Shown here piece after piece: positions 1,606-49,795 of a DNA stretch of 50,889 bases. The translations under genes were made by a program, and so were the position numbers. The notes under the pieces were generated by a model. It did no database searches. It was not told the DNA's origin and saw nothing but the letters and a program-made list of their open reading frames with translations. The stretch is from a virus, in the IMG/VR virus record IMGVR_UViG_3300006128_000017, positions 1 through 50,889 of that record, one strand, 5' to 3'. Position 1 is the stretch's first letter. Each line of letters opens with the position of its first letter.

Positions 1606-1613
1606 TATTTATG
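1606..1613 (-). promoter_or_regulatory. T4-late-type promoter box for the YadA-like fibre
   Basis: On the minus strand the box reads CATAAATA. Its last base lies 9 nt before the ATG at 1597. By T4 spacing the transcript would start about 3 nt before the start codon. Confidence 0.55.
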
Positions 1614-1659
1614 GTTAACTTACTGTTTATCCTCTATTCAACGAAGGATTAAAAAATAT

Positions 1660-1667
1660 ATTAAATA
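1660..1667 (+). promoter_or_regulatory. Late-type promoter box (ATTAAATA)
   Basis: ATTAAATA ends 8 nt before the ATG at 1675. This supports that start over an upstream in-frame ATG at 1534, which would overlap the divergent fibre gene. Confidence 0.4.
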
Positions 1668-1674
1668 TTTACTA

Positions 1675-2793
1675 ATGAATATTTTTGAAATGGTTAAAAC
1701 GCCGCGTCTTTTTAATGAAAAGAAAGAAAGCTACTATACAATATTCGGTTTCGATACAACGAGTAAAGTTGCCGCGCAGGCAATTGACATTGTTTATTGG
1801 TTTATCATATTTGTTGCATATTGCTTTGCATTTCACGCTCTTAATAATATTCTTATTACTTGGAATTGGTTTTTAGTAGGTCTTGCATGTTTTGCCGTCG
1901 TAGGGTTACCTTATTGTGTAAAAATCATTCTTTTTGGTAGAAATCAATTCCCTATAAAGGCAGCACTTCTTTGTTTATTTCTTAGCCTTTTACCGACAAT
2001 CTTTGATTTCACCGGCCTTTATTCAGAAACTGGTCTGCAAGATAGCTTAAAACAAAGTAAAACACAAATTACCGATTCTTTATCCTTTTTTGAAGCTGAG
2101 AGTAAAAAAGCTGTACAAAATCAAGAATTAGATATTAAAAATCAAGGTCGTGAAAAGAAAAACGAAATTGAAGCTAGTTTAGGACAAAAGGTTACAACAT
2201 TAAAAAAACAAATTGAAGATGCAAATCAGGAAGTTATAGATGAGAGACAGGGCGTAAGGGGGAAGGCGGGTGATGGGCCGAGAACTAAAGAGCTTCAGGC
2301 TGATTTAAGAAGACTTCAAGCACAATCAGACATTGAAGTCAAAAACTCAAAAGCCGAAATAGACAGGCAGGAGGCCGCCGTAGATCAGGAAGTAGCAGAT
2401 CAACTTAAAGCCTTAGATCAATCAAACAAGTTACTAGGTGATAAGCTTCTGGCGTGTAAAAAGGAAATTAATGAAGTTAATAATTTCCGTGAACTTGAAA
2501 ATGCTACATTAAATGCAAATAGTCTTATTTCATCAATAGCATCTACTCTTAATACCAAATTCACACCTGTAAAAATTATAGGATCTGATAATATTATCAA
2601 AGTCTCGTTTAACTCGCTTTTTTCACTTGATACTACAGCTCTTGTTTGTTTTCTTCTCGCCTTTCTTATGGAAATCGGTGATATCATCATTACGTTTGTA
2701 ATGAGATATGAACCTGTAGCAAAAGCACCAAAAATTAAACAGGACGAAACATTAAGAAATATCCGCTATACTAAAACGTATGATGGGTACTAG
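1675..2793 (+). CDS. Membrane protein with central coiled coil (DUF4407-like architecture)
   Basis: A 372-residue protein. It has three hydrophobic segments in the first third (about residues 36-58, 61-82 and 90-110). These are followed by about 150 highly charged residues rich in K, E, Q and D that look like a coiled coil (about 125-275), and then one more hydrophobic segment near residue 335 (LVCFLLAFLMEIGDIIITFV). Three membrane helices, a coiled coil and a final helix resemble DUF4407 proteins, but no diagnostic motif was identified and the function is unknown. The frame is open upstream to 1534. The start at 1675 was chosen because it follows a late-type box and avoids overlap with the divergent fibre gene. 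Its stop overlaps the end of the convergent gene at 2790. Confidence 0.75.
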   Translation: MNIFEMVKTPRLFNEKKESYYTIFGFDTTSKVAAQAIDIVYWFIIFVAYCFAFHALNNILITWNWFLVGLACFAVVGLPYCVKIILFGRNQFPIKAALLCLFLSLLPTIFDFTGLYSETGLQDSLKQSKTQITDSLSFFEAESKKAVQNQELDIKNQGREKKNEIEASLGQKVTTLKKQIEDANQEVIDERQGVRGKAGDGPRTKELQADLRRLQAQSDIEVKNSKAEIDRQEAAVDQEVADQLKALDQSNKLLGDKLLACKKEINEVNNFRELENATLNANSLISSIASTLNTKFTPVKIIGSDNIIKVSFNSLFSLDTTALVCFLLAFLMEIGDIIITFVMRYEPVAKAPKIKQDETLRNIRYTKTYDGY

Positions 2794-3377
2794 CCTTTAT
2801 ACTTTTTAGAAAATTGCTTAGCTGTTGACTGACACCATTGCTTGTAAGGGCAATTATCACATACCCTATCTGAGTCTAGATAGAGTTTCGGTGCAATACA
2901 GCTTCCATTTTTTGTATTATCCAATACAAACTCAGCAGTAGTGGTGTAAAAACGTCTTTCAGCAGGTTTCCATGCCTTGACTGCTGCTGTAGCTTCCTGT
3001 TCGGAGAGACGCTTATGTCTAGGTTTCTTAAGAAGCTTGAGGCGTGCTAACACCTTGTGATCAATTTCAAACGGCTTAAGATGACTAGGACGTAATTGCT
3101 TCTGTACTTCCTCTGGAGATACACGTTGTTTGAGCAAGCGTTTAGCTTCATTGCTAACATAGTTATCACAAAAACTACCCAGAGAGCCAAATTTCTTAAT
3201 ACCCTTTACAATACCGGCTTTTGAAACTCTACGTTCAATACCTGTAACAATACATGTCATAATCTTTGACTTTACAGTACCATCATCAGGTTTAGATGCT
3301 TGTATGCTCGTCTTTTGTACAGGTGTCTTCTTAAGAGGTGCCTTTTTCTTTGACTTGGAAGTGCGCTTAACTTTCAT
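2790..3377 (-). CDS. TCIVTG-motif protein with C-terminal Cys4 cluster
   Basis: About 195 residues from the ATG at 3377 (MKVKRTSKSKKK); an in-frame ATG at 3428 would add 17 residues. The N-terminus is very basic. A core of about 60 residues begins TCIVTGIERR and continues with GS-x2-F, Y-V-x3-A and LL-K; it aligns by eye with the protein at 4234-4542. The C-terminus carries four cysteines (C-x12-C-x2-C-x4-C) suited to a zinc ion or Fe-S cluster. The basic N-terminus and metal site suggest nucleic-acid binding, but this is inference. No named family was recognised. It is convergent with the membrane protein and divergent from 3452. Confidence 0.75.
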   Translation of the reverse strand: MKVKRTSKSKKKAPLKKTPVQKTSIQASKPDDGTVKSKIMTCIVTGIERRVSKAGIVKGIKKFGSLGSFCDNYVSNEAKRLLKQRVSPEEVQKQLRPSHLKPFEIDHKVLARLKLLKKPRHKRLSEQEATAAVKAWKPAERRFYTTTAEFVLDNTKNGSCIAPKLYLDSDRVCDNCPYKQWCQSTAKQFSKKYKG

Positions 3378-3415
3378 TGCTGTTATATTATGGAAGCTAT
3401 TTATAAATTCAACAG

Positions 3416-3444
3416 TTGATTTTTTCAAGCTTTACTTTTATATT
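3416..3444 (+). promoter_or_regulatory. Sigma70-like promoter TTGATT-N17-TATATT
   Basis: A -35-like TTGATT at 3416-3421 and -10-like TATATT at 3439-3444 are 17 nt apart. The predicted transcript start, near 3451, is one base before the ATG at 3452. The promoter overlaps the alternative upstream start of the minus-strand gene. Confidence 0.5.
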
Positions 3445-3451
3445 GAGAAAT

Positions 3452-3712
3452 ATGCCGTACATTAAACAAATAAACCGCAGTATGCTGAAGTCGACGACAG
3501 ATGCAATTGCAAACAATGCTCCTATAACAGTGGGCGATCTCAATTATCTGCTTACAAAGGTCTGTCATGCATTTTTAGATAAACAAATTCATAGGAATTA
3601 TCAATCTTATAATGATGTCATTGGTGCTCTTGAATGCTGTAAGCTAGAATTTTACCGCCATGTTGTTGCACCTTACGAGGAAGAGAAAATAAAGGAGAAC
3701 GGCGATGTCTAA
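3452..3712 (+). CDS. DUF6899-like small phage protein (MPYIKQ)
   Basis: 86 residues beginning MPYIKQINRS. The ending (LECCKLEFYRHVVAPYEEEK, then KIKENGDV) matches a widespread small phage protein that I recognise as DUF6899-like. It is probably helical and soluble; its role is unknown. The ATG at 3416 in the same frame was rejected because it overlaps the promoter and adds 12 residues absent from the family. It overlaps the next gene by 8 bases, so the two are likely translationally coupled. Confidence 0.8.
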   Translation: MPYIKQINRSMLKSTTDAIANNAPITVGDLNYLLTKVCHAFLDKQIHRNYQSYNDVIGALECCKLEFYRHVVAPYEEEKIKENGDV

Positions 3713-3896
3713 TAGAATGTCAGCAAGCAGTATTCGTAAGCTCGCTCTTAAGGGCAGACTCGTTCCTATTATTCAGGAAAAAGACGGTAAGCACTATCTT
3801 GTAGGCTACAGGCGCAAGGCCGAAAGCCGCAAGAAGGATAGCTTCCTGCTGCCGGAGCCAGAGCTCATCAACGTTTTACCACAAAAGAATAGTTGA
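3705..3896 (+). CDS. Small basic hypothetical protein
   Basis: 63 residues, rich in Lys and Arg, beginning MSNRMSASSIRKLALKGRLV. The ATG lies inside the end of the previous gene, preceded by the purine-rich sequence AAAGGAGAACGGCG, which is a good ribosome-binding site. No family recognised. The central HYLVGYRRK could be a beta strand followed by a basic tail. Confidence 0.7.
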   Translation: MSNRMSASSIRKLALKGRLVPIIQEKDGKHYLVGYRRKAESRKKDSFLLPEPELINVLPQKNS

Positions 3897-3953
3897 TATT
3901 GATTTTTGAACAGTTAATATCAGATTCAAACCACGAAAGGAGGTGAAATAATA

Positions 3954-4145: not shown

Positions 4146-4160
4146 GACAGTCGTATAAAT

Positions 4161-4200
4161 GAGGTGCCATACTTAAAAGATTTCACGGGTATGGCACCTC
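4161..4200 (+). terminator. 12-bp hairpin, probable terminator
   Basis: GAGGTGCCATAC at 4161-4172 pairs perfectly with 4189-4200 around a 16-nt loop, just after the gene at 3954-4145. The following U-run is short (CTATTT), so termination could be partial, or the hairpin could serve as an mRNA 3' end. Confidence 0.6.
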
Positions 4201-4233
4201 TATTTACGCACCATATAATAACAATCAACCCTT

Positions 4234-4542: not shown

Positions 4543-4545
4543 GGC

Positions 4546-4574: not shown

Positions 4575-4584
4575 AAAAGGAACA

Positions 4585-4857: not shown

Positions 4858-4860
4858 AGC

Positions 4861-8679: not shown

Positions 8680-8687
8680 AATAAATA
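8680..8687 (+). promoter_or_regulatory. Late-type promoter box (AATAAATA)
   Basis: Ends 9 nt before the ATG at 8696, between nrdB and the small gene, allowing the latter separate late transcription. Confidence 0.45.
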
Positions 8688-8695: not shown

Positions 8696-9028
8696 ATGAA
8701 ATTTGATAGACTCGCTGCTGCTTATTTAAGGGTATTAACAGAAAGCCATGACGAATATCTTCCCGGTCAATCGATTGGTGACAATTATATCATTCTCGGT
8801 AGAGAGGGTGATAGCTATAATGTCGCTGAGATTGGCGAACAAGATGTATACCCAGCTTCTGAACTTAAAGACACTGGTACAACCATCGGTGGTATGCAAG
8901 TTATGACTTGGTCCCATACCGGAGAAGATATTATAGTTTCTAATGATAAGACTGAAGAAGGGGATTATGTAGGCTTTCCTATTGAAGGCGGCTTCTTAAT
9001 GACAGCTGAAGAGATTGCTGATCTATAA
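8696..9028 (+). CDS. Hypothetical protein between nrdB and nrdA
   Basis: 110 residues. It starts MKFDRLAAAYLRVLTE, a short amphipathic helix resembling the N-termini (MKFD/MNFKE...) of several phage proteins here. The rest is acidic and beta-rich (GDNYIILGREGDSYNVAEIG). No catalytic motif or family is recognised. Its own late-type box and a following hairpin suggest independent expression despite its place inside the nrd region. Confidence 0.75.
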   Translation: MKFDRLAAAYLRVLTESHDEYLPGQSIGDNYIILGREGDSYNVAEIGEQDVYPASELKDTGTTIGGMQVMTWSHTGEDIIVSNDKTEEGDYVGFPIEGGFLMTAEEIADL

Positions 9029-9090: not shown

Positions 9091-10740
9091 ATGAATAAGG
9101 ATATCTATTGGCTTAATAAAGACTCGAGAAAGTTTCTCAGTCGTGGTTACCTTCTTGAGGGTGAAACTGCCGAGCAACGTATTAGAGATATTGCCGAGAA
9201 GGCAGAGCATTATCTCAACTTACCGAGCTTTGCTGATAAATTTGAAGACTATATGCATAGGGGGTTCTACTCTCTTGCATCTCCTATTTGGTCTAACTTC
9301 GGTCGTGTAAGAGGCCTTCCTATCTCCTGCTTCGGTTCATATGTCAATGACGATATGGATGATATCCTTTATAAAATGTCAGAGGTCGGTGTTATGTCGA
9401 AGGTCGGTGGCGGTACATCTGGATACTTCGGTGCTATTCGCCCGAGAGGTACGCCAATTTCCTCAGGTGGTGAAGCGACAGGCGTTCATCATCAGCTAAC
9501 TGTATTTGAGTCTCTTACGAACTATATTTCCCAAGGCAATGTCCGCCGCGGTTCATTTGCAGCTTATCTTCCTATTGATCATCCTGATATTGAAGAGTTC
9601 TTAAAGATTAGAGGTGAAGGTGATGATATTCAAAACCTTTCAATTGGTGTCTGTGTCTCAGATAAATGGATGAAGTCAATGATTGACGGTGATAAGGAAA
9701 AGAGAGCTCTTTGGGGACAAGTTATTAAGAAACGCTTTGAATCCGGTTATCCTTATATCTTCTTTACTGATAACGCTAATAAACAGGCTCCTAAGGTCTA
9801 TAAAGACAAGGGCATGAAGATTAATCATAGTAATCTTTGTACAGAGATCATGCTTTCTAACGGTATTGATGAATCGTTTGTTTGTGATTTATCTTCACTT
9901 AATCTCGAGCGCTGGGATGAATGGAAGGAAACAGATGCTGTTGAGACACTCGTTTATTTCCTCGATGCAGTCATGACAGAGTTCATCAATAAGACAGAGG
10001 GTATGAAGTTCATGGAGCATCCTAGAAACTTTGCTATCAATCAACGAGCCCTTGGCGTTGGTGTTCTTGGATGGCACTCACTTCTTCAGCTTAAGATGAT
10101 TGGATTTGAGTCAATGGGTGCTAAGATGCTTAACGGTCAGATCTGGAAGTTTATTCGTGAAAAAGCAGATCATGCTTCAGAGAACTTAGCTAAGGAATAT
10201 GGTGAACCACCTCTTCTCAAGGGATATGGTCGTCGTAATTCCACTACGCTTGCTATCGCACCTACAACATCGAGTTCATTTATTCTTGGTCAGGTATCAC
10301 CGAGTATTGAACCGCTTAATTCTAACTACTTTGTCAAAGATTTAGCTAAAGGTAAGTTTACTTTTAGAAACCCGTACTTAAAGAGGCTTCTTAAAGAGAA
10401 GGGTAAGGATGATGATGAGACCTGGAAGGCAGTCCTTATTAAGGGCGGTTCAGTTCAGCATCTCGACTTCCTTACGCAGGAAGAGAAGGATGTCTTTAAA
10501 ACATTCGGTGAGATTTCACAGAAAGAGATTATTATTCAAGCTGCTACCCGTCAGAAATATATTGACCAGGGTCAGTCGCTGAACGTAATGATCCCACCCA
10601 ATACAAAACCCAAGGATGTCAATGAACTCTTGATTTTTGCTTGGGAGCAGGGTATTAAGAGCTTATACTATCAGCGTTCAGCTAACCCTGCGCAAGAATT
10701 GGCACGTTCTATTCTTACTTGTGCAAGTTGCGAAGCATAA
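9091..10740 (+). CDS. nrdA: Class I ribonucleotide reductase, alpha (catalytic) subunit, lacking the ATP cone
   Basis: 549 residues, against about 750 in E. coli. Active-site residues visible: C80 (PISCFGS) and C265 (FVCDLSS) as the reducing pair, N248-x-C250-x-E252 (SNLCTEI) with the thiyl cysteine C250, paired tyrosines Y526-Y527 (SLYYQRS) for radical transfer, and a C-terminal C544-x-x-C547 for thioredoxin/glutaredoxin re-reduction. The N-terminal ATP-cone domain is absent, so dATP overall-activity inhibition should be missing, which suits a phage needing continuous dNTP supply. It works with NrdB at 7706. The next late-type box overlaps its stop codon. Confidence 0.95.
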   Translation: MNKDIYWLNKDSRKFLSRGYLLEGETAEQRIRDIAEKAEHYLNLPSFADKFEDYMHRGFYSLASPIWSNFGRVRGLPISCFGSYVNDDMDDILYKMSEVGVMSKVGGGTSGYFGAIRPRGTPISSGGEATGVHHQLTVFESLTNYISQGNVRRGSFAAYLPIDHPDIEEFLKIRGEGDDIQNLSIGVCVSDKWMKSMIDGDKEKRALWGQVIKKRFESGYPYIFFTDNANKQAPKVYKDKGMKINHSNLCTEIMLSNGIDESFVCDLSSLNLERWDEWKETDAVETLVYFLDAVMTEFINKTEGMKFMEHPRNFAINQRALGVGVLGWHSLLQLKMIGFESMGAKMLNGQIWKFIREKADHASENLAKEYGEPPLLKGYGRRNSTTLAIAPTTSSSFILGQVSPSIEPLNSNYFVKDLAKGKFTFRNPYLKRLLKEKGKDDDETWKAVLIKGGSVQHLDFLTQEEKDVFKTFGEISQKEIIIQAATRQKYIDQGQSLNVMIPPNTKPKDVNELLIFAWEQGIKSLYYQRSANPAQELARSILTCASCEA

Positions 10741-10743
10741 ATA
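10736..10743 (+). promoter_or_regulatory. Late-type promoter box (CATAAATA)
   Basis: Overlaps the nrdA stop codon. Its last base is 6 nt before the ATG at 10749, so a T4-type start would fall on the A of that ATG. Confidence 0.55.
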
Positions 10744-10748: not shown

Positions 10749-11114
10749 ATGAGTAAATTTGAAGCAATTTGCGAGGCTTTAAAAGAAAGAATGACAGATG
10801 AAGAGAGCTTAAAAGAGTTTCTTCATAAGCGTCTTGCTGGTGCTAAGAAAATACAAGCACAAGCTGAAAAAAAAGGTGGCTACTCAACACTAACTGCTAT
10901 TCACTTTAAAGCTAAATTTAAGCCGTATAGTGAGTGCATGAAGCATGTAGACGGGGCTGATTTTGCTAAGAAAGCAGCAGATGAATGTTTTGAGAAGCTT
11001 AAAAATTGGGATAAGATGTCGCAAAGAGAATTTCAGGCAGTTATGGGTGAGCTTGAAGCTTATGGTGAGGTCTACATAAGAGAGACAAAACCAAATAGCA
11101 TAAAGCTGAACTAA
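10749..11114 (+). CDS. Hypothetical alpha-helical protein
   Basis: 121 residues (MSKFEAICEALKERMTDEES...), mostly charged helices with conserved-looking FKPYSECMKHVDG in the middle. No family recognised. The ATG at 10749 is preferred to an in-frame ATG at 10719 because it sits 6 nt after a late-type box and the earlier one lies inside nrdA. The lipoprotein gene follows 3 nt after the stop, so the two are probably co-transcribed. Confidence 0.75.
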   Translation: MSKFEAICEALKERMTDEESLKEFLHKRLAGAKKIQAQAEKKGGYSTLTAIHFKAKFKPYSECMKHVDGADFAKKAADECFEKLKNWDKMSQREFQAVMGELEAYGEVYIRETKPNSIKLN

Positions 11115-11336: not shown

Positions 11337-12668
11337 TCACGGCTTGTGATTCATAATAAAATTAATACAACCATCAAGCCCGTCCTGATACTGCTTAGGG
11401 TAGGTTTTCTGCGATAGGAATGTTTTTATTTTCTCTCTCTCTTCTAATGGTAATGTCCAAAGACGGAATTCCGGTATCTGCTCTTCTTCAGGTAATGATG
11501 TATGGTGTTTAGCAACACCGTTTTTATGTATACCTTCTATCATCTCACCGAGAGGTCCTTCACAGCTATTAAACCATAACGGTATATTTCTCTCCATACA
11601 ATATTCAATTATTTCTGGTATTTCATAAATATTTTGTATAATAGGTACAATAGAGAGAGCACCAAACTTGCCGAGTTTATGTAATGCATTAATATTGGAA
11701 AGAACGTTTTCTAAATTACCGTTCTTACGCATAAACGCATACGTTTTTGGATTTATAGAATCAATCGATACATTAACCCATACATTCAATAAACCTTTTA
11801 ATGCCTTTTCTACTTTATCGTTATAAACAGAGCCATTAGATACAATGCTAACCATAACATTAGGGTTTACCCTAGCTATTACATCCCACATTTTGTAGTA
11901 GGTACTCATAACAAACGGCTCTCCGCCGAGAAACTCGATTACTTTTGCATGTTTTAGAAACGGTTCAATTTCAGTAATAAACCGATCATCGTACATATTT
12001 GCTTGTAAAGGTAATTTCTCTCTATTCTTTCGTATCGAAGAAGAAAACTCCCCACCACACATGATACACTCATAGTTACATGTGTTGTGAATTTGAAACA
12101 CGAGATGAGCTGGGTATTCCGTACCTATCTCTTGCTCTATGTTCGGTACAAACGCTTCACGTACAGCTAGTGCAGAATTATGGCCGTTGCCTGCTAAAAT
12201 ATATCTCGCACAGCGCTGACACCCAAAGGAGAAATCGTAATTTGCCAAAGCATTACGTATATTCTTTATTCGTTCGCCGGTCCAAGCTTCATACGGCGAG
12301 ACTTCTGGGTAAAACCCCAAATTATAATCAACATTATAACAGCATACAGTCATTCTACCACCGAAGTCGAATCGAAGAGAGGTAAGAGGTGCAGCACATA
12401 CATAACTTCTGTTTTTAAAGAAATCATGACTACGTAATATCTCTTGCTGAATTTTGACATAAGGGTTGGGTATGTTTTTTTCAGTACAATATTTCTGTAG
12501 CGTGAGTTCGACAATACCCTCTTCTGATATTATGGATTTTAATTCTTCGAAAACCGGATAACGCTCCTTATATTCATCATATAAAGCACTTAAAGCCGTC
12601 TTAAAATCACTCTCAGGAATATCAAACTGCTTATCTTTGAAGCAAGATATGATTGAATCAACGAACAT
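11337..12668 (-). CDS. Radical SAM protein with N-terminal twitch/SPASM-type Cys region (copy 1)
   Basis: 443 residues. The radical SAM cluster motif C-x3-C-x2-C is in NTCNYECIMCGG, followed by FLGGEPF (GGEP SAM-binding motif) and IVSNGS. About 100 residues before it lies a cysteine-rich region (TVCCYN and FGCQRCARY) like the auxiliary-cluster twitch/SPASM domains, but at the N-terminus, as in the family annotated as twitch-domain radical SAM proteins. Substrate unknown; relatives modify peptides or sugars. A paralogue lies at 45256-46506. Preceded by a late-type box, so probably a late gene. Confidence 0.85.
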   Translation of the reverse strand: MFVDSIISCFKDKQFDIPESDFKTALSALYDEYKERYPVFEELKSIISEEGIVELTLQKYCTEKNIPNPYVKIQQEILRSHDFFKNRSYVCAAPLTSLRFDFGGRMTVCCYNVDYNLGFYPEVSPYEAWTGERIKNIRNALANYDFSFGCQRCARYILAGNGHNSALAVREAFVPNIEQEIGTEYPAHLVFQIHNTCNYECIMCGGEFSSSIRKNREKLPLQANMYDDRFITEIEPFLKHAKVIEFLGGEPFVMSTYYKMWDVIARVNPNVMVSIVSNGSVYNDKVEKALKGLLNVWVNVSIDSINPKTYAFMRKNGNLENVLSNINALHKLGKFGALSIVPIIQNIYEIPEIIEYCMERNIPLWFNSCEGPLGEMIEGIHKNGVAKHHTSLPEEEQIPEFRLWTLPLEEREKIKTFLSQKTYPKQYQDGLDGCINFIMNHKP

Positions 12669-12673: not shown

Positions 12674-12681
12674 TATTTACA
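12674..12681 (-). promoter_or_regulatory. Late-type promoter box (TGTAAATA) for radical SAM copy 1
   Basis: Minus-strand box whose last base is 6 nt before the ATG at 12668, so the predicted transcript is leaderless. It shares the short divergent region with the sigma70-like promoter of the gene at 12760. Confidence 0.5.
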
Positions 12682-14077: not shown

Positions 14078-14085
14078 AATAAATA
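14078..14085 (+). promoter_or_regulatory. Late-type promoter box (AATAAATA)
   Basis: Ends 6 nt before the ATG at 14091, predicting a leaderless transcript. The preceding gap (13954-14077) holds no convincing gene. Confidence 0.5.
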
Positions 14086-15591: not shown

Positions 15592-16274
15592 TGAAACAGC
15601 AACCAATGCCCGTTACCGTAGAACAGGTAACAGATGGAATCTATCACGTCATTGTAGAGAATACATATGACCTTGCGATGACATTTTGTCGAGCTCAAGA
15701 GTTTTATGAATCTTCCTTAACTGGTATTCGTGGTAAGAAATTTGATATGACGGATTTCATGCGTCTGTATACACAGAGTAGAGGTGATACTGTCTTCTCT
15801 TATCCGGCTGATTGGTCAGGCTTTAACGTACCAGGACCAGTATTGAATAAGCTTTATAATGAAATTGGAATAGATGATTTTAATACGTACGATAAGCTTC
15901 TTTTAGATATATTTGAACATGTAAGCAATGAGGTAGGCAGTACGAATTTCTATATAATTGGTTCACAGAACAATGATGCCAGTACTCTCAATCATGAAAT
16001 CAGTCACGGATTATATTTTCTTAATAAAAAATATAAAAAAGATGTTAATGCTGTTCTAGAGAAATTGCCAAAATCTATACAAAATAAAATCTTTAAGCAT
16101 TTGTTAGAAACGGGCTATTGCAAGGCTGTTTTAATAGACGAACTCAATGCATATCTAGCGCACAACCTTGCAGATATATCAAAAATGTTGAAATTCTCAA
16201 AAAAGGATCTAAAATCATTAAAGAAAATTTCAGCACAATTGCAAGAGATTTATACTTCGTTCATTGATAAGTAA
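15591..16274 (+). CDS. Putative zinc metallopeptidase-like protein (HEISH)
   Basis: 227 residues. H135-E-I-S-H139 in LNHEISHGLYFLN is an HExxH zinc-binding motif on a helix, and E184 in LIDELNAYLAH is placed to be a third ligand as in gluzincins. The first half is unlike known peptidases. A hydrolytic role is inferred from the motif only; such phage proteins may process virion or host proteins. It lies directly upstream of tmRNA (3 nt), so the RNA may be cut from the same transcript. Confidence 0.7.
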   Translation: MKQQPMPVTVEQVTDGIYHVIVENTYDLAMTFCRAQEFYESSLTGIRGKKFDMTDFMRLYTQSRGDTVFSYPADWSGFNVPGPVLNKLYNEIGIDDFNTYDKLLLDIFEHVSNEVGSTNFYIIGSQNNDASTLNHEISHGLYFLNKKYKKDVNAVLEKLPKSIQNKIFKHLLETGYCKAVLIDELNAYLAHNLADISKMLKFSKKDLKSLKKISAQLQEIYTSFIDK

Positions 16275-16277: not shown

Positions 16278-16734
16278 GGGGGTGTACTTGGTACTCGATT
16301 TAATTATTGAAAACTATAGTGCATGCAGTAGACGATTGTATCTACTTTAAAATCAATCAAAAAAATCAAACGCCGAAGATAATACTGACGCGCTCTTAGC
16401 AGAGGCTAGCTACATCTTTAACCACGCAGACGAGTTCTGCATGGAAGAAGAGTATCTTCTCGCTGCATAAAAACAGTATCGGATCCTATTAAAGGTACTG
16501 GGAGCTTAACAATAGGTTAAGGAAGGTCTTACGATTCTAAGAAAACTAAGAGTAAGCGGTCGTAGTAAAGCCGGTTCTTGCTACAGGTAGAGAAAAATAT
16601 AGGCTGGCAACCATTAGCAACCTCTCTCTCCGGCGCCGTATGGCGTTCTTGAAATGCTAGAATATGCTAAAGCATGTAGAGTCGATAGATAGTCAAGATT
16701 AAGGACAGGGGTTCGAATCCCCTCACCTCCACCA
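16278..16734 (+). ncRNA. ssrA: tmRNA, one-piece, with an unusually long tag frame
   Basis: 457 nt. The acceptor stem GGGGGUG (16278-16284) pairs with CACCUCC before the A and encoded CCA at 16732-16734, with the third pair G-U, the alanine identity element. A T-arm with loop TTCGAAT, the conserved GTGCATGC, and CTAAAGCATGTAG near the 3' end fit tmRNA. Pseudoknot 1 is visible (GTAGA/TCTAC with GATTG/CAATC around 16328-16360). The tag frame ends GCT GCA TAA at 16468-16470 and reads open from at least 16366, about 32-34 codons ending EEEYLLAA, a ClpXP-type LAA end. E. coli's tag is about 10-11 residues. The resume codon is uncertain (UCA, AAC or GCC). No smpB gene was recognised in the window. 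Confidence 0.95.
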
Positions 16735-21435: not shown

Positions 21436-21520
21436 TGCTAGACCCGAGTAGGCAGGGGGTAACTAGTCTTCTTCGACCAGCGGGTTTAATACCCGGTAGC
21501 CAATGAAGATCTATCTAGCA
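21436..21520 (+). ncRNA. Unassigned structured RNA, about 85 nt
   Basis: The ends pair perfectly: TGCTAGA (21436-21442) with TCTAGCA (21514-21520). Inside, CGGGT-TTAAT-ACCCG (21481-21495) forms a hairpin, and GTCTTC (about 21466-21471) can pair with GAAGAT (21505-21510). A second ACCCG at 21442-21446 could compete for CGGGT, so two folds are possible. It does not fold as a tRNA: no T-loop and no CCA. It lies between two late-type boxes, so it may be a small late RNA or a leader. No known family was recognised. Confidence 0.55.
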
Positions 21521-21526
21521 TAAATA
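21519..21526 (+). promoter_or_regulatory. Late-type promoter box (CATAAATA)
   Basis: Ends 7 nt before the ATG at 21533 and overlaps the last bases of the structured RNA. Confidence 0.5.
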
Positions 21527-22803: not shown

Positions 22804-22816
22804 GCTAAATAATTAT

Positions 22817-23254
22817 GTGGAAAAGAGAGATAGAATTGTTCTTGTAATAGCTGCTTTCTTTTTTATATTTTTATACTGTGCGCTTAAAAACCCGACGCCT
22901 ATAGCAGTACCAGACATAAATGCATATCCTCTACCTCAGGGGTGTATGATTTACTCCATGGCATTTGAAAGTGCATTAAGAGCAAGAGCACTTTTAGACG
23001 ATCGTTGTTATTGGTCAGACATAGTTGGCATAAAATTCAAAGATGCAGATATGTATCATGCCGTTCTTGTCTATGAATACAACAATGGAACGTGGATTTA
23101 TGACTGTAACATGGGTTCTTTTGAAATTTCTCCAAAGAGACTTATTACTCTTAATGAAATTGTGTATGCCGCATACCCTGATAAAGAGGTTGAAGATGCA
23201 ATTTGGCTAAGATCCAATTTGGATCACCATGATCATTACGGATTTCCAGAATAA
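22817..23254 (+). CDS. Membrane-anchored transglutaminase-like (papain-fold) protein
   Basis: 145 residues from a GTG start. Residues about 7-22 are a hydrophobic anchor, placing the rest outside the cytoplasmic membrane. C43 (QGCMIYSMAFESALRA), H81 (YHAVLVYEY) and D96 (WIYDCN) have the order and spacing of the Cys-His-Asp triad in bacterial transglutaminase-like cysteine proteinases. The assignment is by motif only. A periplasmic peptidase or amidase role, for example in lysis or exclusion, is possible. An ATG two bases upstream leads to an immediate stop, so GTG was chosen. Confidence 0.65.
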   Translation: MEKRDRIVLVIAAFFFIFLYCALKNPTPIAVPDINAYPLPQGCMIYSMAFESALRARALLDDRCYWSDIVGIKFKDADMYHAVLVYEYNNGTWIYDCNMGSFEISPKRLITLNEIVYAAYPDKEVEDAIWLRSNLDHHDHYGFPE

Positions 23255-24482: not shown

Positions 24483-24490
24483 TATAAATA
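24483..24490 (+). promoter_or_regulatory. Late-type promoter box (TATAAATA)
   Basis: Exact consensus ending 6 nt before the ATG at 24496, predicting a leaderless transcript starting the fibre cluster. Confidence 0.65.
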
Positions 24491-27382: not shown

Positions 27383-27390
27383 AGTAAATA
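27383..27390 (+). promoter_or_regulatory. Late-type promoter box (AGTAAATA)
   Basis: Ends 6 nt before the GTG start at 27396. It follows a 14-bp palindrome ATTGAATATTCAAT at 27368-27381. Confidence 0.45.
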
Positions 27391-28841: not shown

Positions 28842-28849
28842 TATAAATA
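28842..28849 (+). promoter_or_regulatory. Late-type promoter box (TATAAATA)
   Basis: Exact consensus ending 6 nt before the ATG at 28855; a T4-type start would fall on the A of the start codon. Confidence 0.65.
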
Positions 28850-34080: not shown

Positions 34081-34088
34081 AATAAATA
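34081..34088 (+). promoter_or_regulatory. Late-type promoter box (AATAAATA)
   Basis: Ends 7 nt before the ATG at 34095, starting the fibre gene pair. Confidence 0.5.
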
Positions 34089-34094: not shown

Positions 34095-34757
34095 ATGGCT
34101 ACAGTATCTATAGTAAAAATTAAAGTACGCAGAGGTTCGGACGCAGAAAGAAAGACTGTAACGTTCGATGTAGGTGAATTGGGATTTGTAACCGATGCCG
34201 ATGCTCGTCGTCTTTATATTGGTGATGGTGTAACCCTCGGTGGTGTGCCGACTTCGATGTATTTTTACTCTGGTAGTATTACTCAAGCTGCAGCTGGAAC
34301 ATCGGTTGCGTTAGCTAAAGCACAGATCGGTGATTTAATCTTTAACACTGACAATAGTCAGCTTTTTATTCTTTCAGGTATTAATGTTGGTTCTGGTTTT
34401 CCAGACTATACCAATCCAAATGCATATCAATCTATAGCGCCTGCAACGGATAATACTACCGTAGTATATAACGGTGCTGGTGCGCTTTCGGTTAATACGA
34501 ATGGTGTGTCTGCAGTGCATATAGCACAGGATGTTCTTGATACCATATCTGGTGGATTTAGAAGACCTTCACCAACAGGTTCATTTAAAATATCAACAGA
34601 TAATACAAGTATTAAAATCAATCTATCAAATCAGTTGTATGTAGATCCATATAGTACTGACTGGGCGTCTAACGCAGGTATACATAAAACAAGACCAGGA
34701 ACACCGGGTATTCTCTGGATCGATCCTTCTGCTGATAACGCACTAAAAATTTCATAA
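34095..34757 (+). CDS. Fibre protein with KVRRG...GELGF...LYIGDG N-terminal domain (short copy)
   Basis: 220 residues. The N-terminal motif IKVRRGSDAERKTVTFDVGELGF, split as VRRG then GELGF, and DADARRLYIGDG, is a common phage-fibre attachment domain. The same domain begins the following protein, so the two arose by duplication. The C-terminal half (TDNTSIKINLSNQLYVDP) is beta-rich. Probably trimeric, perhaps a co-fibre of the next product; the 2-nt gap to the next gene supports co-translation. Confidence 0.8.
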   Translation: MATVSIVKIKVRRGSDAERKTVTFDVGELGFVTDADARRLYIGDGVTLGGVPTSMYFYSGSITQAAAGTSVALAKAQIGDLIFNTDNSQLFILSGINVGSGFPDYTNPNAYQSIAPATDNTTVVYNGAGALSVNTNGVSAVHIAQDVLDTISGGFRRPSPTGSFKISTDNTSIKINLSNQLYVDPYSTDWASNAGIHKTRPGTPGILWIDPSADNALKIS

Positions 34758-40547: not shown

Positions 40548-41376
40548 TGCAATTCCTATATGCTATAGAGCAGATAGTAAATATCAGAAATTTCTAATAA
40601 ACTCTATCCATTCTGTTCTTAAGTTCTATAAAGGTAAACGAAATATTATTTTTTATATTCTTACCAATGATAGTTTATTAGATCTTTCAGAGCTCGACAA
40701 CCTTAAATCTGTATATACCAATTTCACATATGAAGTAATGTTTATTACAAAGCAATTTTTAATGCAGAACGGCATTGATAATGAACTAGCGGCTCTATTG
40801 ACGAGGAGGTTTTATAAATTTAATATATATGATGATTTAAAGGTAGTAGGTGAAGGTCGAAAGAATAATCCTTTTGCAAGAAGTAAGCTTATAATTTCAT
40901 ACCCTATGCTTTTTTTGATGTTTACAAAACACAAGAAAATAATCCTCCTAGATACAGATACTATAATTGTTGATGATATAGATTCCCTCTTTAATGTCGA
41001 TGTATCGAATGTTGTTGTTGCAGCTTGTGACGATTGGGATGATACTGAAACACATACAGCCTTCAACCCATCTGTATCTGTATTCAACGTAAAAGAGTTT
41101 CAAAAAACAGTAACACCGTTTATTAAAGAAAAACTGACAACCTATTTAGCTGACAATGATGATGATATGCTGCCGTTTGCTGAACTTATACAGAGTGCAA
41201 TTTGTCTAGCTATACAAAACAGAGATCAACTAGATAGAAGCTGGAATGTACCTATTACTCATTTATATTTGTGCGACTCACCGAAAATATATCATTTTTC
41301 TGAATCATGGTCAGAGAATGAATTGGTTATTAACAAGTACAAGGAAATAGTTGACAAATATTTGCTAATGCCGTAA
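40531..41376 (+). CDS. Glycosyltransferase family 8-like protein
   Basis: 281 residues from the ATG at 40531 (MSLIDDAIPICYRADSKYQK); an in-frame ATG at 40489 lies inside the previous gene. The start resembles GT8 enzymes (IPICYRADSKY), and KKIILLDTDTIIVDDID holds the DxD motif (D141-x-D143) that binds metal and UDP-sugar. It would transfer glucose or galactose onto a lipid, protein or glycan acceptor. It completes the sugar cluster. Confidence 0.85.
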   Translation: MSLIDDAIPICYRADSKYQKFLINSIHSVLKFYKGKRNIIFYILTNDSLLDLSELDNLKSVYTNFTYEVMFITKQFLMQNGIDNELAALLTRRFYKFNIYDDLKVVGEGRKNNPFARSKLIISYPMLFLMFTKHKKIILLDTDTIIVDDIDSLFNVDVSNVVVAACDDWDDTETHTAFNPSVSVFNVKEFQKTVTPFIKEKLTTYLADNDDDMLPFAELIQSAICLAIQNRDQLDRSWNVPITHLYLCDSPKIYHFSESWSENELVINKYKEIVDKYLLMP

Positions 41377-41379
41377 GTA
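41372..41379 (+). promoter_or_regulatory. Late-type-like box (CGTAAGTA)
   Basis: A degenerate version of the late box, exactly 6 nt before the ATG at 41385. Weak by sequence, supported by the repeated spacing. Confidence 0.3.
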
Positions 41380-41384: not shown

Positions 41385-41630
41385 ATGATCAACGAAATTA
41401 TCGCAGAATTTTTTGATTTTAGTAAGCCATGTCCGGAAAGTGTACCGTTTTGTGAGCAACTGCGTAGTAAGTATAATGAAGAATTAAAAAAGCTCGGGAG
41501 CGGATGTAAGTCCTGTCAGACCAATAATATAAAGGTCAAATATATGAATCAGGTATGGGAGAGTCATATAAAAAGCACTATAGATAAAAACGTTGATGAG
41601 GAATTAAGGAGGCTAAACAGAAATGCTTAA
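41385..41630 (+). CDS. Small Cys-containing phage protein
   Basis: 81 residues with PFCEQLRSKY and SGCKSCQTNN, giving C-x2-C plus another Cys that may bind zinc. Its C-terminus overlaps the membrane protein that follows by 8 bases. Similar small proteins are common beside phage membrane proteins; function unknown. Confidence 0.65.
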   Translation: MINEIIAEFFDFSKPCPESVPFCEQLRSKYNEELKKLGSGCKSCQTNNIKVKYMNQVWESHIKSTIDKNVDEELRRLNRNA

Positions 41631-44238: not shown

Positions 44239-44704
44239 TATAATCGTCGCTAATAGCCAGATTAAAGAGGCTAAACTGTATGGACCGTCAAAAAAAGCGA
44301 GTGAAAAGCCGGAGACAGGCATTGTAATACAAAATGCAGCTGCATTTCATGTAATTAAAGATTGTGCTACATTAGCTAATCAATACCTCCCGCACTTTAT
44401 TTTCGGTCATTATGCTAATCCCTTTGAAGTTCTTAAGTCAAAGTTTACTAAAGCAGATATATCTGAGTTTATTAATGGCGCTAACTCTGATATTGTGTTA
44501 AATCAGCTACTTGTTCTTATTTTAGAAAAAGCACGTAAGGTAATTAACACTAATAATACCACTCAACCTAGTGTAACACCTGCGATAAACGTCAATGCTA
44601 ATGATCCTTACGGAGAATATGAGATATATAGTGAGCAACCACAAGTTAGCACACAGTTAGATACATATACCATTTTGTGCACTGTATTTAACGCATTAGA
44701 ATAA
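44225..44704 (+). CDS. Hypothetical protein
   Basis: 159 residues. A helical first half (AAAFHVIKDCATLANQYLPH, ISEFINGANSDIVLNQLLVL) and a low-complexity Asn/Thr/Pro-rich C-terminus (TNNTTQPSVTPAINVNAN). No family recognised. The ATG lies inside the dCMP deaminase end, which suggests translational coupling. Confidence 0.6.
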   Translation: MKFVDIIVANSQIKEAKLYGPSKKASEKPETGIVIQNAAAFHVIKDCATLANQYLPHFIFGHYANPFEVLKSKFTKADISEFINGANSDIVLNQLLVLILEKARKVINTNNTTQPSVTPAINVNANDPYGEYEIYSEQPQVSTQLDTYTILCTVFNALE

Positions 44705-44707
44705 GTA
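44700..44707 (+). promoter_or_regulatory. Late-type-like box (AATAAGTA)
   Basis: Degenerate box ending 8 nt before the ATG at 44715. Confidence 0.3.
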
Positions 44708-45105: not shown

Positions 45106-45279
45106 ATGGTTAGCTTCATACGAAATATCTCTAAGCTCTTCGGGTATAAGTCATCAAAGAGCAAAAAAATTGAAGCACCTTACATTATCATGAATGATAA
45201 TACCCCGGTTCTTAAAACACGGGCTCAGCTTATAGAGGAAGGTAAAGGAGCTTATTTACCTAAACGGATTAAACGATAA
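45106..45279 (+). CDS. Small basic protein (57 aa)
   Basis: Begins MVSFIRNISKLFGYKSSKSK, a possible amphipathic membrane-binding helix followed by lysines. It is convergent with radical SAM copy 2 and their 3' ends overlap by 24 bases. No family recognised; a substrate relationship to the radical SAM protein is only a guess from position. Confidence 0.6.
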   Translation: MVSFIRNISKLFGYKSSKSKKIEAPYIIMNDNTPVLKTRAQLIEEGKGAYLPKRIKR

Positions 45280-46506
45280 TAATCTGATAATAGAATTGCT
45301 TAATCCTCTATGGATCTTAGCTAATACAGTTGAATCTTCAGCGTTCTTCTCCTCAAAATTCATAAGAGCATCAATTAAACTCTGAACCCGTACACCATAC
45401 TCAGGTATAGTATGTAACTTTTGTGCCTTAAGTGTATTACAAATACGTATTCTCTCTTTTTTCGGTAAAGTAAACAAGCTGACTTCTGGTAGTTTATCTT
45501 TTAAATTTACATTTATAGTTGTCTTTGAAATATTGTCGTATTTTATCCAATCACCATTTGCATGAATCCCTTTTATTCTTCCACCGAGCGGGTCATGTAC
45601 GTTGTTAAATGTTAATCTTAAGTTATTAGTTTGGCAGTACCGTATAATATCTTGTATTTCATGCCAGTTTTGAATCATGGGATTGAAAGTAATGACGCTC
45701 AGCGCACCTAGTTCTTTATATTTTGCAAGATTATCTAGTACTTTACTTAAAGTGCCATTTTTACGTATGAAACTATATGTTTCGGGATTTAAAGAATCTA
45801 AAGAACATACTAATTTAATATTTTTATGCCGTTGTATAAGGTTCTTTATCCTTTCGTTGTATATCGATCCGTTTGTGGTAATACCGACGAGGATATTAGG
45901 ATTGAGTTCTATTACTTTCTCCCAAATCTCGTAATATAAAGGAACTGCAAACGGTTCACCGCCGAGAAAATTCATTTTATATAGATGAGGTATAAATTGT
46001 TCCAGCTGCTTAACGAAGTTTTTGTCGTATACAAACGGAATAGCGGGTAATTTCTCTCTATTAGCTCTTATCTGCGAAGACCAATGCCCGCCGCACATAA
46101 TACATTCGTAATTACAAACATTAGTTATCTCAAATTCCATTACTTTCGGAAACCACGTATCGCCTTTGTAAGGACTGTGTAGAGCGTTTTTCTGTCTATG
46201 CTCTTCGTCGAATTTTGCTAATATTGTGTTGTTATAATCTCCAGAGGCAAGATGTTTATAACAGACATTACATCCATTGCTAAAATCCAAATTATTGAGT
46301 TGTTGCTTTAATTTAACAAGCTCAGGTGATTTGAGCGCATCCATAATTGTGTTTTTTGGATACGTTCCAAGAATAACTTTCCTGTTAGCACAGCATACAG
46401 TCATATTACCGAGAATATCGAAATTTATCGACATACCAGGTGCATAGCATGTGTGTTCCTTCTTTGTTAAAATATTAACAATATGCTCCGGTAATTGACT
46501 GCTCAT
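45256..46506 (-). CDS. Radical SAM protein with N-terminal twitch/SPASM-type Cys region (copy 2)
   Basis: 416 residues. The radical SAM motif C-x3-C-x2-C is in NVCNYECIMCGGHW, followed by FLGGEPF and ITTNGS. The N-terminal half has NMTVCCANRK and NGCNVCYK, like copy 1 at 11337-12668; the two proteins align along most of their length and are clear paralogues. Substrate unknown. It shares the minus strand with two virion genes just upstream, which hints at action on virion proteins, though this is inference. Confidence 0.85.
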   Translation of the reverse strand: MSSQLPEHIVNILTKKEHTCYAPGMSINFDILGNMTVCCANRKVILGTYPKNTIMDALKSPELVKLKQQLNNLDFSNGCNVCYKHLASGDYNNTILAKFDEEHRQKNALHSPYKGDTWFPKVMEFEITNVCNYECIMCGGHWSSQIRANREKLPAIPFVYDKNFVKQLEQFIPHLYKMNFLGGEPFAVPLYYEIWEKVIELNPNILVGITTNGSIYNERIKNLIQRHKNIKLVCSLDSLNPETYSFIRKNGTLSKVLDNLAKYKELGALSVITFNPMIQNWHEIQDIIRYCQTNNLRLTFNNVHDPLGGRIKGIHANGDWIKYDNISKTTINVNLKDKLPEVSLFTLPKKERIRICNTLKAQKLHTIPEYGVRVQSLIDALMNFEEKNAEDSTVLAKIHRGLSNSIIRLLSFNPFR

Positions 46507-46512: not shown

Positions 46513-46520
46513 TATTTAAC
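46513..46520 (-). promoter_or_regulatory. Late-type promoter box (GTTAAATA) for radical SAM copy 2
   Basis: Ends 7 nt before the ATG at 46506. The AGGTTA in between could double as a weak ribosome-binding site. Confidence 0.4.
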
Positions 46521-46533: not shown

Positions 46534-49500
46534 TTAAGCAACTGTTCCGAACGTAAACGAATTATCAACAACACTGCCAACAGATGTATTTAAGATAGGA
46601 TATGTCTGTAGATATTTGCTTGTACCAGGGTTAGCAAAATTAATATCATATACGTCAGAGCCTAGTTTATACATTGTATGTGAGACATCGGTATAGATAT
46701 TGTCTATATATTGGAACTGTGAATTAAAGACATAAAATGCATTTGATGCATCTTTACCGAGATATGTAATAGTATAGCGATTTGTTTCATCGTTATACGT
46801 CATAATCGGTTTATCGATTTTAATAATATTCAATTCAATATCCTTACCAGAAAGTGAGTACTGACTCAAATAATTATATGTTAAAGTCTCATCACGGACA
46901 GTCGGGTAAATTTGCTTAATGCTTAAAGCGTTAAGATTAAATGCATAGATTTTTGGGTAAATTATCTTATAGTTAGAAGCACTTAACTCATTGAACACGT
47001 TCATCTGGCAGAACAATAATTCCTTTTCACGCTCATTAAACCATACTGTTGAAATTTGCTGTAAATCATTATTACTATCCTTATAGATATAATTTGTACC
47101 AGGGCCACCTTCATATATTGTATTGGTATTATAATCAAACGTAAGTTTTTCTAATACAAGATAATTTGGTGTCTCTAGCTGTAAAACATCGTAGTATAAA
47201 TCAAAATTAATAATGCTGTTATTAAGTTCTTCTTGAATGTCTTGTGGATATTTTAAGAAGATTGCACTAAGTGCTGTTGAAACAGGTACAATAACAGTGC
47301 TATTAGAGTTACGGTAATACAGATCACCTAGAACGGTATTCTTAGAATCGTAAAGACTTGCAGTTGTGTTTAATTCTGATTGCGTTTCATTTACCAGTGT
47401 TGTGAAGCCAGGTAATCTTATGTCGAAGAAATTCGATTTTTCAGCATAAACAGTTGTTGAGAAGCTTTGCGCTGCACATGGATCAACGCCATTAACAGTA
47501 AATCTAAAACCATCGACAACATAATATGATGATGTAGGTATGGTATATAGGAAGTTACCGGGATACGGGAATGTCGCTCTATAATCTGCAAGTCTTTGTG
47601 GTGTACCGGCAGTAAAGAACGCTGAGACTGCTATATATTCAGATATAGGTGAATTAGGTATAGCAGAAACGGGAATAGTTGTAAGTGTTGTAAAGATTGT
47701 ATTGTTAACAATATACGGATGCCCTTGACCGGCATCAAACAACTCCATATAATAAAGTTTAGAGTTAAGTGGATCGTAATTAGTAGAATCGGTTAATGGT
47801 GTGGCAGGATACGGTTCACCTCCCGGTAACATGAACCCTACACCGTCGACAATTGAACAAACATATCCAACAGTAGAATAATCAGAGCAAAATATCTCCG
47901 GCTGGAAAGTATAAGAGTATATAGGCGATGTTGAACCTGTTAATCTAAATGATGCGGTTTCATTAGAGATGATCTTACCTTCGTTATTGTAGATAGGTAA
48001 GTTTGTATCCTCATAAGTAACGGTTTTTAAAATAACACCAGACCAGTTAAGTGCTTTATTCTCCTGAGTAAAATCAAAATTATAACCAGATATCGGATCT
48101 TTAAACGTATAATTGTCGAGCGCTAAGCATGTAACAATATTATCAGACTGTGTGGCATTATAATTAAATGTGTTTGCCTTATTAGGAGATATTTGCTTGT
48201 ACAGACCAAACTCGTTACCGTAAATGTCGTTTTTATATTGTACGAGAGTCTTATTAAGAGATAGAAGATTTTTTGTTCTTAAATCAATTGGAAATATATT
48301 CGACGGAATGACAGGGTATATATCACTATTAGACCATATTGTCTTTTGATCGCCGGCAAAGAAATCCTGTGCATCGGTATATTTTGATAGACCGAAATCT
48401 TGTGTATCTAATGTCTGCTCTCTTGATTGATAAGCTCTAAAGGTCTGATAGTATGGATCTGTTGTTGAATCACCAAAACGATAACTATTAGAGAAATCTA
48501 CCGTGTCTCTTGTATTATCCTCAATAAAATCAAAAGGCGTCTTAAAGGATGTCTTGGTATTACTTGAAATATTTCCGTACTTGCTAGGATCAGGAAAGAA
48601 GTATAAAGTATTTGGTTCAAGCTTAGTATAATCTATTTCTGGCTTAAATTTAAAATTCGTAAAGGTACTAATACCTAGTTTATCTGGTTTAAAAAATAAA
48701 CCGAGTTCTTTTTCAGATAAAAGATACTCTGTTGACGGTACACCTATGACAGTTGGAAAGCGTTTGTTTAGATAATTAGCAAAATCATTATCTGCTTTAC
48801 ATAAAATACCAGATGTATAACTTGTTGTTGTGCTACCAACCTTAACGTAATAGATATCAGCACCGATATACTTCTTAATTAAGTCTGCTTGTAAATAGAG
48901 ATTTAAATCTGTATATGCGGTACTAGAAATAAGTGTTTGAAAGTCGCTGTCTTTTAAATAGTTTAAATTAGTGCTATTAATGAGCGGATCAACGTACAGA
49001 TTTGAACCGAGTTCAATTAGGTAAAACGGATAGGATGCAATAGCACGTAGAATCGAGAATGAAATGTTTTTAAATAAATCCGGATCTATGCTGTATTGGT
49101 TTAGTGTAAAATACTGTGCTCTTAAATCATTAAAAGAATTATAAGCAGATGCTGATTTAACAGAACTTACATCATAATAATCTGCATAATTGTCATATAA
49201 ATCTTCTGTTTCAAATGTAAGATTATTCTTAATACCAGATACAGACACAACATAGTTTTGCTGCGTAGGTGTAACGTCACCTGTCTGCAATGTATTAATG
49301 AATAAATTATAAAGTGTACGTTCAGTACCGAAATTAGATCCTTTTAAATTATATTGTACTGTAGCTGTTTCAGCTCTGTCACGTAATGTACTATAATAAA
49401 GACATATTTCTTTTATTTTTTGAGTAAAGAATGGTACAGATAGCGCTAAATCACCGGGATCTGATAAATCAAGATTCTTTAAATAACGCTGCTCGTCAAT

Positions 49501-49782
49501 TGTAGAATAATTTAAAACAATTTCATTAATGAGCTGGGTATAGTATTGTTGTACTATTTTTTCACTCTGCTCTTGCGAGGTTTTTGTAGTATTAAACCAG
49601 TTATTTAAATATGACTGATAGCGTAGTAAGAAATCAGACGAGTTAGTGTATAAGAAATCGTTATATTTTAACCAATCAGTAAAAGACAGCGGTTGATAAC
49701 TATCAACTGGATGGGCAGAAGGGGTGCGCGAAGTAATTGAATTATCCAACCGTTCGTCAACATATCTGATAAAATCTGCCAT
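46534..49782 (-). CDS. Large tail or baseplate structural protein
   Basis: 1082 residues (MADFIRYVDERLDNSITSRT...). The N-terminal 200 residues are helical (YRYQ-type tail-assembly look; FFTQKIKEICLYYSTLRDRAE), and the rest is beta-rich and high in Tyr, Asn, Ser and Thr like the other virion proteins here. No family could be named; a baseplate-wedge or tail-tube-associated protein is likely from size, composition and neighbours. It is expressed from a late-type box right at its start. Confidence 0.65.
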   Translation of the reverse strand: MADFIRYVDERLDNSITSRTPSAHPVDSYQPLSFTDWLKYNDFLYTNSSDFLLRYQSYLNNWFNTTKTSQEQSEKIVQQYYTQLINEIVLNYSTIDEQRYLKNLDLSDPGDLALSVPFFTQKIKEICLYYSTLRDRAETATVQYNLKGSNFGTERTLYNLFINTLQTGDVTPTQQNYVVSVSGIKNNLTFETEDLYDNYADYYDVSSVKSASAYNSFNDLRAQYFTLNQYSIDPDLFKNISFSILRAIASYPFYLIELGSNLYVDPLINSTNLNYLKDSDFQTLISSTAYTDLNLYLQADLIKKYIGADIYYVKVGSTTTSYTSGILCKADNDFANYLNKRFPTVIGVPSTEYLLSEKELGLFFKPDKLGISTFTNFKFKPEIDYTKLEPNTLYFFPDPSKYGNISSNTKTSFKTPFDFIEDNTRDTVDFSNSYRFGDSTTDPYYQTFRAYQSREQTLDTQDFGLSKYTDAQDFFAGDQKTIWSNSDIYPVIPSNIFPIDLRTKNLLSLNKTLVQYKNDIYGNEFGLYKQISPNKANTFNYNATQSDNIVTCLALDNYTFKDPISGYNFDFTQENKALNWSGVILKTVTYEDTNLPIYNNEGKIISNETASFRLTGSTSPIYSYTFQPEIFCSDYSTVGYVCSIVDGVGFMLPGGEPYPATPLTDSTNYDPLNSKLYYMELFDAGQGHPYIVNNTIFTTLTTIPVSAIPNSPISEYIAVSAFFTAGTPQRLADYRATFPYPGNFLYTIPTSSYYVVDGFRFTVNGVDPCAAQSFSTTVYAEKSNFFDIRLPGFTTLVNETQSELNTTASLYDSKNTVLGDLYYRNSNSTVIVPVSTALSAIFLKYPQDIQEELNNSIINFDLYYDVLQLETPNYLVLEKLTFDYNTNTIYEGGPGTNYIYKDSNNDLQQISTVWFNEREKELLFCQMNVFNELSASNYKIIYPKIYAFNLNALSIKQIYPTVRDETLTYNYLSQYSLSGKDIELNIIKIDKPIMTYNDETNRYTITYLGKDASNAFYVFNSQFQYIDNIYTDVSHTMYKLGSDVYDINFANPGTSKYLQTYPILNTSVGSVVDNSFTFGTVA

Positions 49783-49787
49783 GAAAA

Positions 49788-49795
49788 TATTTAAT
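49788..49795 (-). promoter_or_regulatory. Late-type promoter box (ATTAAATA) for the large structural gene
   Basis: Minus-strand box whose last base is 6 nt before the ATG at 49782. It overlaps the end of the upstream gene. Confidence 0.5.

Follow-up and report, generated by a model that had tools for sequence, protein, structure and literature searches.

The DNA examined here is a 50,889-base IMG/VR fragment (IMGVR_UViG_3300006128_000017; the window, by which this whole stretch is meant) of an uncultivated freshwater “Far-T4” phage with an A+T content of 63%. Among its products are a ribonucleotide reductase pair, a 5′-3′ exonuclease, a DnaB-like protein, and tail-fibre and baseplate-like proteins, and many others have no family match. 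A comparison with the annotated phage collection gave no direct relatives for the main structural proteins, and a scan with a 1082-amino acid (aa) structural protein as a single-sequence query returned no matches. The element under study is a short late-type box with the core TAAATA, which lies unusually close to the start codons of genes on both strands.

Distance is given throughout as the number of nucleotides (nt) from the last base of the box to the first base of the start codon. Sixteen starts have a box at a distance of 6–9, nine of them at 6 and seven at 7–9. The first-pass annotation had claimed at least fifteen such genes on both strands, which the count bears out (two of the sixteen, at 41385 and 44715, carry TAAGTA). 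It had also listed eight starts at exactly 6; all of those positions are correct, one (41385) is doubtful, and a ninth, at 22817, had been overlooked.

Among the boxes at distance 6, ATTAAATA (49788..49795, minus strand) precedes ATG 49782 of the 1082-aa structural protein (46534-49782), and the distance-6 ATG recurs in 29 of 30 relatives at 41–54% identity and in every one of the 32 family contigs. The octamer TATAAATA occurs on the plus strand at 28842..28849, before ATG 28855 of a 1187-aa open reading frame (ORF), for which 9 of 9 relatives have distances of 6–8 at identities down to 25%, and again at 24483..24490, before ATG 24496 (157-aa ORF). A virion-protein-like ORF of 475 aa begins with GTG 27396 behind AGTAAATA (27383..27390, plus), and a distance-6 GTG is found in 7 of 11 relatives. 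Further plus-strand examples are CATAAATA (10736..10743) before ATG 10749 (121-aa ORF, 10749-11114), with orthologues in two relatives, including the contig G002 (82%), both at distance 6; AATAAATA (14078..14085) before ATG 14091 (69-aa ORF); and GCTAAATA (22804..22811) before GTG 22817 (145-aa ORF), for which a search among the relatives returned no orthologue. On the minus strand, TGTAAATA (12674..12681) precedes ATG 12668 of a radical SAM protein (11337-12668); this box is not retained in the sole relative found (41% identity). The ninth case, CGTAAGTA (41372..41379, plus) before ATG 41385, has the core TAAGTA. That core was rejected as a functional variant, having no peak at 6 in relatives, and this together with a TTGACA 17 nt upstream makes 41385 an unsafe example; 9 of its 10 orthologues have no TAAATA there.

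At distance 7 are CATAAATA (21519..21526, plus) before ATG 21533 (303-aa ORF), AATAAATA (34081..34088, plus) before ATG 34095 (220-aa ORF; 5 of 9 relatives also have the box at 7), and GTTAAATA (46513..46520, minus) before ATG 46506 of a second radical SAM protein (45256-46506). At distance 8 are ATTAAATA (1660..1667, plus) before ATG 1675, an internal start of ORF 1534-2793 whose counterpart in G002 is a GTG at distance 10, and AATAAGTA (TAAGTA; 44700..44707, plus) before ATG 44715 (116-aa ORF), where relatives have TAAATA at 6–10. Distance 9 is represented by AATAAATA (8680..8687, plus) before ATG 8696 (110-aa ORF) and by CATAAATA (1606..1613, minus) before ATG 1597 (ORF of at least 531 aa), for which the distance is 6 in the contig G001 and one other relative. 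In G002, the distances for window genes are 6 at 10749, 14091, 24496, 27396, 28855, and 49782, 7 at 34095, and 9 at 8696. The two radical SAM proteins, both on the minus strand and each behind a close late box, share 38% identity with each other.

Under a first-ATG rule applied to 60 gene starts in the window, TAAATA was present at distance 6 before 7 starts and at 6–9 before 13. Shuffling of the upstream 60-mers 2000 times with dinucleotides kept gave means of 0.11 (maximum 3) and 0.47 (maximum 4), respectively. The full octamer TATAAATA was not over-represented in the window (5 seen against ∼10 expected); it is the position of the box, and not its number, that is non-random. The observation on box position is confirmed, far beyond chance.

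A two-sequence alignment (the window plus one IMG/VR relative) gave 39 loci, plus 17 further loci; the IMG/VR relatives include contig IMGVR_UViG_3300013006_000024 of 105,162 bases. Four long relatives (G002–G005, 131–193 kb) encode the T4 core (DNA polymerase, gp44, gp46, gp47, gp41, UvsW, a RecA homologue, single-strand binding protein, and gp55, together with the late proteins gp6, gp13, gp15, gp17–gp21, gp23, and gp25). The presence of T4 core genes (gp23, gp20, gp17, and replication genes), far from those of T4 and the cyanophages, places these contigs among the Far-T4 phages, and the window is tied to them by several structural proteins in common. In the 193-kb G002, 22 tRNA genes lie at 16690-48944, compared with 1–4 in three other relatives.

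A sharp peak at 6 in the distribution of distances had been put forward as support for the original idea, and counting over 38 related contigs revealed such a peak together with a floor at the same distance. In a gene-anchored count of TAAATA to the first ATG (39 non-redundant clade loci, 837 kb, 677 genes), 109 boxes lay at distance 6, 49 at 7, 19 at 8, and 7 at 9, with 0–3 at distances 2–5 and mostly 0–4 beyond 11. A box-anchored count that uses no start caller (38 contigs, 1.35 Mb) peaked again at 6. The 448 starts at 6–11 fall into 151 families, 86 of which have a member at exactly 6, so that the peak does not arise from one gene counted many times. For gp25, the distance is 6 in 32 of 32 cases, and the codon is GTG in 31 of them. 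Residues 2–14 are conserved across families directly after the called start (MSEELNEMVGDLL, VATIK, FIDERL), which indicates that the starts are correctly called.

In the relatives, the two bases preceding the TAAATA core are A/T-rich (A in 48–78%), closer to the cyanophage NATAAATA than to the TA of T4. Genes behind late boxes show no excess of −35 elements (0.02 compared with 0.018 after shuffling), and positions +1 to +5 are mostly A/T. Of the T4 homologues encoded by the four long contigs, 18 of 48 late ones but 0 of 41 early or middle ones have a box at 6–9 (P = 5e-6), and the remaining late genes mostly lie close behind another gene in an operon-like arrangement. A homologue of gp55 that matches the PHROG late sigma family (E ∼1e-26; for example, L099 13729-14340, minus strand) is present in 11 of 12 long contigs but not in the fragment that makes up the window. 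Transcription-regulation core genes had gone undetected in Far-T4 phages, for which no promoters were reported (Roux 2015; PMC4360716). Judged by homology, Far-T4 phages do encode gp55, contrary to that description.

Counted from the transcription start, the T4 late box runs from −13 to −6 (PMC2988020), which places +1 at 6 nt after its last base, and the geometry that the first-pass annotation took from T4 is correct. If +1 is indeed at this position, then the start codon cannot lie closer to the box, which would explain the floor at 6. Boxes with longer leaders have a purine peak at +6, amounting to 69% in the clade, 79% in T4, and 86% in cyano- and pelagiphages. The identity of the start codon also depends on distance. 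In the box-anchored count, codons at distance 6 were ATG (135), GTG (73), TTG (3), and CTG (1), whereas those at 7 were ATG (91) and GTG (3). Overall, GTG:ATG was 77:155 at 6 and 8:194 at 7–11 (P = 6e-16), where the counts are of sequences rather than independent events; a GTG at 6 occurs in 22 families. The same restriction to RTG has been measured in mycobacteria, where a 5′-terminal ATG or GTG is both required and enough for leaderless translation and where TTG and CTG fail (PMC4633059).

Clade genes without a late box provide a second measure of the same position. Upstream of these genes, −10 hexamers of the σ70 type peak at distance 7 (56 families, compared with ∼7 per position), and when a −35 element matching at least 5 of 6 bases was also present, 19 families were found at 7 and no more than 3 elsewhere. 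These 56 families come from the set of 38 Far-T4 contigs, and examples of the arrangement TTGATT-17-TATAAT at exactly 7 are G001 6027 and L008 2090. The −10 element recognized by σ70 spans −12 to −7, so that a distance of 7 would again place +1 on the start codon. The shape of these elements (−35 TTGATT or TTGACA with TATAAT) argues for a σ70-type host promoter, and two promoter classes of different internal geometry would then agree on the same +1. Leaderless starts would therefore not be confined to late genes in the clade.

Four independent signs thus point to the start codon as +1: the numbering of the T4 box, the start-codon rule, the geometry of the σ70-type promoters, and the bimodal distances in cultured SAR11 phages. 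Taken together, these data indicate that the late promoters are very probably positioned so that the mRNA begins on or near the start codon and is translated leaderless. The boxes would be T4-type late promoters read by host RNA polymerase carrying the phage gp55 sigma factor, shifted onto the start codon so that transcription begins 6 nt past the last A of TAAATA. At distance 6, the 5′ base of the message would be the purine (A or G) that opens the start codon; at distances 7–9, transcription would begin 1–3 nt earlier. Such messages, beginning AUG or GUG, would be translated as leaderless, and the same message presumably serves for the box-less downstream genes of each late operon, some of which have a Shine-Dalgarno sequence. 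The arrangement appears to be a property of the whole uncultivated Far-T4 clade, in which promoters of the σ70 type are also predicted to sit on the start codon.

With regard to the original proposal, the peak and floor at 6, the link to late genes, and the occurrence of gp55 favor leaderless late mRNAs, but the σ70-type promoters at 7 extend the prediction beyond late genes, and boxes at 7–9 imply leaders of 1–3 nt rather than none. The phenomenon would thus be wider than first thought, taking in early-type promoters, the Far-T4 clade, the phages of SAR11, and possibly the Rhodothermus phage RM378. It had also been stated that most of the genes have no Shine-Dalgarno sequence. Such genes do lack one, but this is weak evidence because the box occupies its place and in part accounts for the absence at distance 6; few genes anywhere in the clade use a Shine-Dalgarno sequence (∼12% of other genes). 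The bimodality of the pelagimyophages HTVC008M, Mosig, and Melnitz is more informative: 15 boxes lie at 6 without a Shine-Dalgarno sequence, 4 at 7–14, and 21 at 15–35, of which 16 are accompanied by one.

Several observations weigh against this interpretation. The major capsid and portal genes, which rank with the most highly expressed late genes of T4-like phages, lack a box at 6–9 and apparently have leaders (the portal gene boxes are at 12–25), so that not every late message is leaderless. A profile search of the relatives, run without a positive control, gave no match to gp33, and gp45 yielded one weak match (G003, E 7e-5) and none by profile, again without a positive control. The σ70-type peak at 7 is not visible in the window alone. 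Finally, in Escherichia coli, leaderless translation is weak and GUG performs poorly (PMC4633059), which implies that the host must differ in this respect. Upstream of gp23, a stretch CCTGAATAG ... AAGGTCGACA is conserved in three of the four long contigs (G003 130776; G004 40330 and G005 34513, both minus strand). A stable hairpin in the capsid-gene leader was also considered, but folding showed no clear hairpin, and the idea is unsupported.

The alternative that survives best accepts that the late promoters are real but holds that compaction alone pressed them onto the genes, with most protein coming from messages that begin further upstream and reach the gene by read-through or processing, and with leaderless RNA as a by-product. 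The genomes are compact, many late genes lie in operons, and the box-less downstream genes must be translated somehow. Compaction, however, leaves unexplained why the GTG/ATG rule is tied to a codon exactly at +6, and it fits poorly with a distance of 6 kept in all 32 contigs of the 49782 family despite 41–54% identity. Several boxes, moreover, head divergent units (such as 1597 on the minus strand and 1675), where no upstream message exists. This explanation is considered unlikely.

It is less likely still that TAAATA is a translation signal, such as an A/U-rich site for the ribosome or S1, standing in for the Shine-Dalgarno sequence. The box at −11 to −6 does occupy the Shine-Dalgarno position in genes that have none, but it marks late and not early genes although the ribosomes are the same, and it equals the consensus of gp55, which is encoded. 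In HTVC008M and Mosig, it is also found 19–28 nt upstream together with a separate Shine-Dalgarno sequence. Slightly more improbable is that the start codons were miscalled and that the true starts lie downstream behind Shine-Dalgarno sequences with ordinary leaders. Calling was mechanical (the first ATG after a stop), but the conservation of residues 2–14 and the unchanged peak in the count made without a start caller both speak against this. An origin in A+T-rich composition or in the stop codons of upstream genes (the TAA in TAAATA) is already refuted by the clade-wide peak, the shuffles, the equally A+T-rich T4 and P-SSM4, which have none at 6, and the fact that a box at distance 6 has its TAA in a different frame from the start codon; its one success is a chance peak at distance 1 (GGTAAATAATG), which does stem from the end of one gene and was rejected as a signal.

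Genes directed at the ribosome were also noted. The window contains a full-length transfer-messenger RNA (tmRNA) gene at 16278-16734 on the plus strand (Rfam RF00023, 91 bits), which was missed by ARAGORN, and the cultured relative Melnitz likewise has one. Homologues of the ribosomal protein bS21 are encoded by 9 of the 12 long contigs of the Far-T4 clade (8 of them scoring over the Pfam cut-off; for example, L122–L128), as well as by HTVC008M and Melnitz, and the bS21 gene of G002 (15868-16029) has TAAATA at distance 7. When the host was sought by bS21 similarity among genome contigs, no match was obtained. A broader proposal can be advanced only tentatively, as a possibility that we would not favor at present: that Far-T4 expression runs largely on leaderless mRNAs, both early (σ70) and late (gp55), and that the ribosome-directed genes, namely the bS21 of most long relatives and the tmRNA of the window, may tune the host ribosome towards messages of this kind.

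On the reading that late promoters lie on start codons, late promoter and start codon appear to have merged throughout a branch of the T4 superfamily that is common worldwide, and an RTG rule is visible in the sequence. This would make the branch a naturally occurring example of a lytic virus that relies on leaderless expression wholesale. The reading predicts host ribosomes that accept leaderless GUG and could allow start codons to be corrected in thousands of phage genes from metagenomes. HTVC008M and Mosig, which infect SAR11 and are in culture, offer an immediate test.

Late transcription in T4 is the textbook system, with leadered messages led by Shine-Dalgarno sequences. The boxes described here resemble T4 late promoters in the TAAATA preceded by A/T, the missing −35 element, the A+T-rich bases just downstream, the association with late structural genes, and the gp55 homologue of the relatives. 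By contrast, the T4 box lies mostly 22–30 nt upstream, with a leader and a Shine-Dalgarno sequence (15 of 16 at 15–35), and gp33 was not found here in the search described above. No box at 6 was found in T4 (125 genes), Syn9, P-SSM4, Ochrobactrum phage OC, or Sinorhizobium phiM12, where boxes are mostly beyond 20. KJ802832, an unrelated Salmonella phage, was discounted as a relative and served as an outgroup. The Lake Pavin paper on Far-T4 phages presents neither transcription-regulation core genes nor promoters, unlike the present analysis, in which gp55 was found (PMC4360716).

Leaderless messages are known from other settings, although in the open-access literature no paper was found that joins them with T4-type late promoters. 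The middle and late mRNAs of phage P23-45 are reportedly leaderless. In phiKZ, the motif T(−3)ATG(+1) occurs at late transcript starts, overlapping the start of transcription (PMC7598289). Both phages use other polymerase or sigma systems and not gp55 promoters. Mycobacterial leaderless mRNAs are alike in that transcription begins on ATG or GTG and never on TTG or CTG codons (PMC4633059), but they come from cellular genes and cellular sigma factors, whereas a phage-sigma promoter is proposed here.

Parallels are also found in cultured phages. In the regions read, HTVC008M, Mosig (SAR11), and Melnitz (OM43) have TAAATA at exactly 6 without a Shine-Dalgarno sequence before 10, 3, and 2 genes, respectively, so that Melnitz shows the arrangement weakly; no report of it in pelagimyophages was found in the literature searched. 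These phages differ in that many of their late genes are leadered with a Shine-Dalgarno sequence, whereas nearly all of those in the clade of the window would be short-leadered or leaderless. RM378, a cultured Rhodothermus phage once used as a Far-T4 reference, has a different box, and the sigma factor annotated in it gives only a poor alignment with gp55. Its TATTTAA (TTATTTAA) shows a floor and a peak at 7 (11 genes), which with +1 on the ATG corresponds to −13 to −7, and this box is perhaps a late promoter of its own with the same geometry.

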